Both the position numbers and the translations under genes were made by a program. Under the pieces are notes generated by a model. The model made no database searches. It was not told the DNA's origin and saw nothing but the letters and a program-made list of their open reading frames with translations. A DNA stretch of 64,000 bases, taken from positions 1 to 64,000 of the forward strand of contig NZ_JANHDJ010000002.1 of the NCBI RefSeq assembly GCF_024494645.1. Reading direction: 5' to 3'. Within the stretch, counting starts at the first letter, position 1; every line of letters begins with the position of its first letter. The stretch comes from Halohasta litorea (GTDB lineage Archaea > Halobacteriota > Halobacteria > Halobacteriales > Haloferacaceae). Shown here piece by piece: positions 22,408 to 23,410 of the stretch.

Positions 22408-22604
22408 ACCCACACTGGGGGTTGGGGGTGAATAAGCGTCTCGGAGCGACTGTCTCGAAGCACGGCTGCTGCGGGTCAACGGTAGAGATCTGTCACTGTC
22501 GACCGGGTGTAATCCTGCCGGAGATGCGAACGTTTAGGTCCACTGCCCGGTCTCGAAAAAATAGACCGTTGTGGCCGACTGCCGCAACCGAGGAGTATCC
22601 CTCC

Positions 22605-22656
22605 GGGCGATGGGGCTCGCCCGCCCAAACCGCCGACCGGGCTGATGGCTCCTGGC
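22605..22656 (+). promoter_or_regulatory. Fluoride riboswitch (crcB motif) aptamer
   Basis: The stretch reads GGGCGATG at 22605, CGCCCAAAC at 22622-22630 and TGATGGCTCC at 22643-22652, the conserved blocks of the crcB RNA in the right order. P1 can form between GGGCG and CGCCC; GGGGCT (22612-22617) can pair with GGCTCC (22647-22652) as the pseudoknot; GCC/GGC closes the second stem. Compared with the Thermotoga aptamer I recall, there is a 4-base GCCC duplication before AAAC. It ends about 12 bases before the crcB ATG, so control of translation is likely. Confidence 0.85.
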
Positions 22657-22664
22657 TTCCATCC

Positions 22665-23045
22665 ATGACACCCAAACAGCTCCTCTCACAGCTCGAACCG
22701 ATCCTGTTGATCGCCGTCGGCGGCTTCGCCGGGGCCAACCTCCGGCACTTTGTCGACCTCCTCGTTCCCGGCACACTGCCGGGCACGCTCGCAGTGAACG
22801 TCCTCGGCAGTTTTGCCCTCGGCGTGTTGGTCTACGATTCGTTGGGCCAGTCAGCAATCGGCGACAACTCAAGGCTCGTGTTCGGAACGGGATTTCTCTC
22901 CTCGTTTACGACCTACAGTGCGTTCGTCCTGGATGCCGTCCTCACTGAGCCACTGACTGCGCTCGGCTACGTCGGCGTGAGCTACGCTGGTGGCTTCCTC
23001 GCGGTGCTCGCCGGTCGACAGTTCGTCCGCGGAGGTGATCGCTGA
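22665..23045 (+). CDS. crcB: Fluoride channel CrcB/FluC, first subunit
   Basis: This 126-residue, four-helix membrane protein has the family blocks GGFAGANLRHF, GTLAVNVLGSFALG (with the pore Asn) and FLSSFTTYSAFVLD. FluC channels expel fluoride as dual-topology dimers. Here two genes in tandem probably give a heterodimer of oppositely oriented subunits. It lies directly behind the fluoride aptamer and overlaps the second copy by one base (TGATG). Confidence 0.93.
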   Translation: MTPKQLLSQLEPILLIAVGGFAGANLRHFVDLLVPGTLPGTLAVNVLGSFALGVLVYDSLGQSAIGDNSRLVFGTGFLSSFTTYSAFVLDAVLTEPLTALGYVGVSYAGGFLAVLAGRQFVRGGDR

Positions 23046-23410
23046 TGGTCCCTACCGAGCCCGCCTATCTCGTCGGCACTGGCGGGGCGATCGGGGCCGT
23101 CCTCCGGTATCTGATCGCCACGCTCATCGCTCGCTGGGGCGGCCAGAGGCGGTTCCCTCTCTCGACGCTCGTCGTCAACGTCGTCGGGAGCTTCGCCCTC
23201 GGTGTCGTGATATTCGGCGGGTTCGGCGAGACCACGACGCTGTTCGTTGGCGTCGGCATCTGCGGCGCGTTCACGACCTACTCCTCGTTTAGCGTCCAGA
23301 CCGTCCGGCTCTGGGAGGACGGCATGACTGGCTATGCGCTCGCCAACGCCGTCGGAAACCTCGCGCTCAGCGCCGTCGCCGTCGGGGCGGCGTGGCTACT
23401 GGTCGGCTGA
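23045..23410 (+). CDS. crcB: Fluoride channel CrcB/FluC, second subunit
   Basis: The second copy has 121 residues and four helices, with GTGGAIGAVLRY, STLVVNVVGSFALG and GAFTTYSSFSVQTVRL. It differs enough from the first copy to be an old duplication specialised for opposite membrane orientation. Its start overlaps the stop of the first copy, so the riboswitch would control both. Confidence 0.93.
   Translation: MVPTEPAYLVGTGGAIGAVLRYLIATLIARWGGQRRFPLSTLVVNVVGSFALGVVIFGGFGETTTLFVGVGICGAFTTYSSFSVQTVRLWEDGMTGYALANAVGNLALSAVAVGAAWLLVG

Follow-up and report, generated by a model that had tools for sequence, protein, structure and literature searches.

A fluoride riboswitch aptamer before a crcB gene pair in Halohasta litorea and a likely start-masking hairpin in its haloarchaeal relatives

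Two consecutive genes for fluoride channel subunits in Halohasta litorea are preceded by a short stretch that had been read, from its letters, as a fluoride riboswitch of the crcB type with a four-base duplication that would offer a switch between two registers of helix P1. The locus raises the question of whether this aptamer is genuine, whether the duplication has any part in switching, and by what means fluoride would act on the two genes. We address it in a stretch of 64,000 nucleotides (the window; positions 1 to 64,000 of contig NZ_JANHDJ010000002.1, forward strand) and in related haloarchaeal genomes.

A search with the Rfam covariance model RF01734 (Fluoride), the check that had been proposed with the original prediction, returned a match to the full model (positions 1-64) with a score of 42.3 bits, where the gathering score of 34 bits was used as the curated cut-off; the lack of a covariance-model hit, named beforehand as a result that would count against the prediction, thus did not occur. 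The E-value of this match is 2.2e-9 for the 6 kb searched and 2.3e-8 for the whole window. Nowhere else in the 3.8 Mb genome is the cut-off exceeded, the second-best score being 15.9 bits. The blocks GGGCGATG (from 22605), CGCCCAAAC and TGATGGCTCC (22643-22652) are present where they had been predicted, and all three elements thought able to pair do so in the window: P1 and P2 pair in the RF01734 alignment, and in the pseudoknot six pairs are possible, two of them G-U (Table 1). Between the end of the pseudoknot and the ATG lie 12 nt, in agreement with the predicted distance of about 12 bases. Both of the following open reading frames, correctly predicted as fluoride channel genes, encode CrcB, and the start of the second gene overlaps the stop of the first. 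The gene upstream of the riboswitch, which carries siroheme-decarboxylase-like domains, is divergent, so that the riboswitch lies in a true intergenic region.

Table 1. Positions in the window of the fluoride aptamer, its parts, the proposed hairpin and the downstream genes
Feature	Position	Strand	Basis or remark
Fluoride riboswitch aptamer	22597-22661	+	Extent of the RF01734 match
P1 5' strand, GGGCG	22605-22609	+	RF01734 alignment; relatives
Pseudoknot 5' strand, GGGGCU, inside the 8-nt P1 loop	22612-22617	+	Pairs in 64/64 relatives
P1 3' strand, CGCCC	22618-22622	+	RF01734 alignment; P1 pairs kept in relatives
9-nt linker, CGCCCAAAC	22622-22630	+	The predicted duplicated GCCC falls within it
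P2 5' strand, GCC	22632-22634	+	RF01734 alignment
P2 3' strand, GGC	22640-22642	+	RF01734 alignment
Proposed fluoride-free hairpin, 5' arm, GAUGG	22644-22648	+	Suggested chiefly by the relatives; weak in the window by itself
Pseudoknot 3' strand, GGCUCC	22647-22652	+	Pairs in 64/64 relatives
Proposed fluoride-free hairpin, 3' arm, CCAUC	22659-22663	+	Separated from the start codon by one base
First crcB gene, 126-aa fluoride channel subunit	22665-23045	+	PF02537, E 8.8e-21
Second crcB gene, 121-aa fluoride channel subunit	23045-23410	+	PF02537, E 2.1e-23

Matches to the Fluoride model were found in 66 of 391 Halobacteria genomes, in each of the four genomes that represent the genus of the window and in 17 of the 170 genomes of its family. 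From these haloarchaea, 68 aptamers were parsed, of which 64 had a start codon that could be used; one family supplies about half of these 64, and counts over them do not represent independent events. All six pseudoknot pairs are standard at every position in 64 of 64 relatives, with pair 3 occurring as A-U, G-C, C-G or G-U and pair 5 as U-A or C-G, and changes on both sides are seen at two of the six positions. The P1 pairs are kept in 62-64 of the 64 relatives. This combination of pseudoknot covariation and P1 conservation lends strong support to the aptamer. Judged by its sequence and by those of its relatives, the stretch is a genuine fluoride riboswitch aptamer and an ordinary member of a known family, as had been called, and we infer fluoride binding and the direction of control from that family.

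Some of the relatives have features of their own. Two loci (L038 in genome G296 and L039 in G358) carry two tandem fluoride aptamers about 415 nt apart, the first preceding a small membrane-protein-like open reading frame (~70-85 aa, MGQQDT...) and the second the CrcB pair; the small protein is possibly a further fluoride-regulated gene product. A fluoride-like aptamer with an altered pseudoknot loop (AAAUC) is present at locus L020 (G201), where no CrcB-like frame was found among the downstream open reading frames of at least 50 aa, and this is perhaps a decaying aptamer copy. At locus L053 (G019), CGACG replaces the conserved UGAUG and the score, 29.5 bits, is under the Rfam cut-off; the start-masking stem described below is nonetheless kept there through changes in both arms.

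The second part of the original prediction was that GCCC is duplicated after P1, such that either of two CGCCC copies could close the helix and the exchange of registers would be the switch. The corresponding letters, CGCCCGCCC, are indeed present in the window, as well as at three other loci (L033, L036 and L040), and in a simple energy count the second register is weaker than the first by only 1.2 kcal/mol (-8.9 versus -10.1 kcal/mol). However, the four extra bases amount to the normal haloarchaeal linker length. Counted from the CGCC of P1 to the CGCC of P2, with its first C also closing P1, the linker is 9 nt long in 62 of the 68 haloarchaeal aptamers; its sequence varies, the usual forms being CGACCCAAC and TGACCCAAC. 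Among 11 loci from searches of the genus and the family, the linker is 9 nt long in nine and 10 nt in two, one of the 9-nt loci and both 10-nt loci repeating loci already counted. The comparison behind the prediction was with the Thermotoga aptamer, than which the window is four bases longer at this place, and the apparent insertion results from the use of that sequence as the reference.

Within the genus, the linker reads CGACCAAAC in the sister species (L034), CGACCCAAC in L031 and TGATCCAAC in L198. The window's version differs from that of the sister species by one A to C change, and this single change in a linker of normal length explains the GCCC copy. The second copy is absent in the three other members of the genus. 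Over the haloarchaeal linkers of this length, a second CGCC occurs in 3 of 62, compared to 2.9 expected from the column frequencies (9 observed versus 7.8 expected with U allowed), so that nothing suggests that it has been selected. Moreover, closure of P1 in the second register would yield a 12-nt loop and disturb the pseudoknot, whereas the loop is 8 nt long in 68 of 68 aptamers. Together, these observations render a two-register P1 switch highly improbable. The notion that a long linker is unique to haloarchaea was likewise rejected: among the matches listed, chance matches included, the linker of bacterial aptamers is mostly 5-6 nt but also 7-11 nt long, and at two Thermococcus loci (L116 and L137) it spans 16-17 nt, compared to 9 nt in the window. 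The Thermococcus linker contains GGCUUCGAGCC, which is able to form a small extra hairpin.

Upstream of P1, an AT-rich peak is found at a distance of about 30-38 nt across the haloarchaeal group, which is consistent with a TATA box that would start the transcript a few bases before P1; given such a start and the short spacer, the leader would comprise little more than the aptamer. In the window, a clear BRE/TATA box was not found at the expected place, and the nearest AT-rich block, TCGAAAAAATAG, lies about 50 nt before P1. An AGGAG block at about 22591-22595 was considered as a conserved competitor for the pseudoknot strand and was discarded, as inspection by eye revealed no such block in the other members of the genus.

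How, then, could the aptamer act on the crcB genes? The locus is probably a fluoride riboswitch that forms part of the 5' leader of an operon of two crcB genes, and an ON switch that acts on translation. In the proposed mechanism, P1, P2 and the pseudoknot would be locked by fluoride together with Mg2+, the bases ahead of the AUG would stay free and the fluoride channel would be made. When fluoride is absent, the 3' portion of the aptamer (GGCUGAUGGCUCC) would be released and pair with the bases just before the start codon, in the window as GAUGG with CCAUC, hiding the start. Because the same strand serves P2, the ligand site and the pseudoknot, this hairpin and the bound aptamer would exclude each other.

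The same aptamer might instead control premature transcription termination. Many bacterial crcB RNAs overlap terminators (PMC2864571), and several loci among the matches listed show terminator-like stems followed by T runs. Unlike many of the bacterial RNAs, however, the window shows no terminator, and no T-run is visible in its spacer. The distance from the pseudoknot to the start is short and rather constant over the 64 haloarchaeal loci (mostly 11-20 nt), which leaves little room for a terminator, and the hairpins found in haloarchaea end at the AUG rather than ahead of a T-run. Termination is an improbable mode of control here.

Evidence for the hiding of the start comes mainly from the haloarchaeal loci taken together. 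The bases before the AUG are often complementary to the strand with which the aptamer itself forms P2 and the pseudoknot, GGCUGAYG, the pairing being, for example, GGCUGACGG-N7-UCGUCAGCC-AUG in locus L055 and GGCUGAUG/CAUCAGCC-AUG in L009. The motif CAGCC precedes the AUG in 31 of 64 loci and in 0 of 99 other gene starts, the latter drawn from the window and the relatives' loci with an approximate choice of start. When the hairpin formed by the 3' strand of the aptamer and the spacer was compared with shuffled spacers, p<0.05 was obtained in 48% of the 64 loci (mean z -2.0), and with other gene starts as spacers in 22 of 63. A stem score of at least 12 was reached by 61% of the loci, compared to 9% of shuffled spacers and 16% of other gene starts, and anchored pairing was found in 76% in the proposed register versus 9-52% in shifted registers. 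Furthermore, the two arms change in pairs, both within one genus (GAUGAC/GUCAUC in L025 and L026 versus GACGAC/GUCGUC in L053) and between families (GGCUGAUG/CAUCAGCC in L009 versus GGCUGACG/CGUCAGCC in L055). With the aptamer forced, the 8 bases ahead of the AUG were predicted to be more open, the mean rising from 0.43 to 0.62, with an increase in 47 of 64 loci, in a folding program that does not model the molar salt of the haloarchaeal cytoplasm. In some relatives (L014, L017 and L029), the hairpin is not clear. In view of these comparisons, haloarchaea likely use the short hairpin as the expression platform of an ON switch at the level of translation.

In the window itself, the proposed hairpin consists of 5 bp, and its 5' arm overlaps the conserved UGAUG and the pseudoknot strand. 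The p value of its stem score is 0.07 in the comparison with shuffles and 0.11 in that with other gene starts, the fold energy gives p = 0.30 against shuffled spacers, and the predicted openness of the start rises slightly, from 0.73 to 0.78, with the aptamer locked. The hairpin is not significant in the window alone and, along with the loci in which it is not clear, this speaks for a reading in which the aptamer controls translation here through no dedicated hairpin, its proximity to the start altering ribosome access and the GAUGG/CCAUC match being accidental. We consider this rather unlikely given the strong enrichment of the hairpin over the haloarchaeal group and its occurrence within the genus, where L031 keeps the identical GAUGG/CCAUC and L034 has GGCUG/CAGCC. 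The haloarchaeal relatives thus suggest a start-masking hairpin in the window's species too. For the broader proposal, that the fluoride riboswitches of haloarchaea constitute a distinct group and have a natural platform that needs no Shine-Dalgarno sequence, in which GGCUGAYG would pair with CRUCAGCC-AUG until the ligand uncovers the start and of which the window's species would have a reduced and shifted form (GAUGG/CCAUC), we see even chances.

The platform is the more interesting part of this system than the aptamer. It would supply salt-loving archaea that are genetically tractable with a natural switch induced by fluoride, and offer a clean test of how structure in the start region controls translation where no Shine-Dalgarno sequence is involved. 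Riboswitches that act by masking the start are known; a hairpin that does so without a Shine-Dalgarno sequence may not have been described so far, and in the literature searched no text joined 'fluoride riboswitch' and 'haloarchaea'. The kind of aptamer and its context are known; the locus is of mild importance because only one natural archaeal riboswitch has been reported as experimentally tested (PMC8241225) and because roughly one in six of the haloarchaeal genomes sampled carries this aptamer with a simple, likely start-masking hairpin.

With respect to known systems, the first report of the crcB RNA family described it as widespread among bacteria and archaea (PMC2864571). The window aptamer resembles the RF01734 crcB motif in P1, P2, the pseudoknot and the conserved GGCGAUGG, AACCGCC, GGCUGAUG and CUCCU, as well as in its location before crcB genes. 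It departs from the Rfam consensus in the linker after P1, which is 3 nt longer, as in nearly all haloarchaeal members. According to PMC8241225, which cites Speed et al. 2018, no natural archaeal riboswitch has been determined by experiment other than the fluoride riboswitch of Thermococcus kodakarensis; like the window's, the latter is a fluoride aptamer of an archaeon that lies ahead of a start codon, and it is presumed to be translational. The Thermococcus loci L116 and L137 have a GGAGG, Shine-Dalgarno-like stretch after the aptamer. In the 12-nt spacer of the window, no Shine-Dalgarno-like site is visible and the paired bases adjoin the AUG. A parallel in a haloarchaeon to the switch proposed here is the theophylline riboswitch E, which works in Haloferax volcanii, its start region being hidden without the ligand and opened with it (PMC8241225). 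As would be the case in the window, the start codon region is masked until the ligand binds; unlike the window's riboswitch, riboswitch E is synthetic, responds to another ligand and also hides a Shine-Dalgarno sequence.
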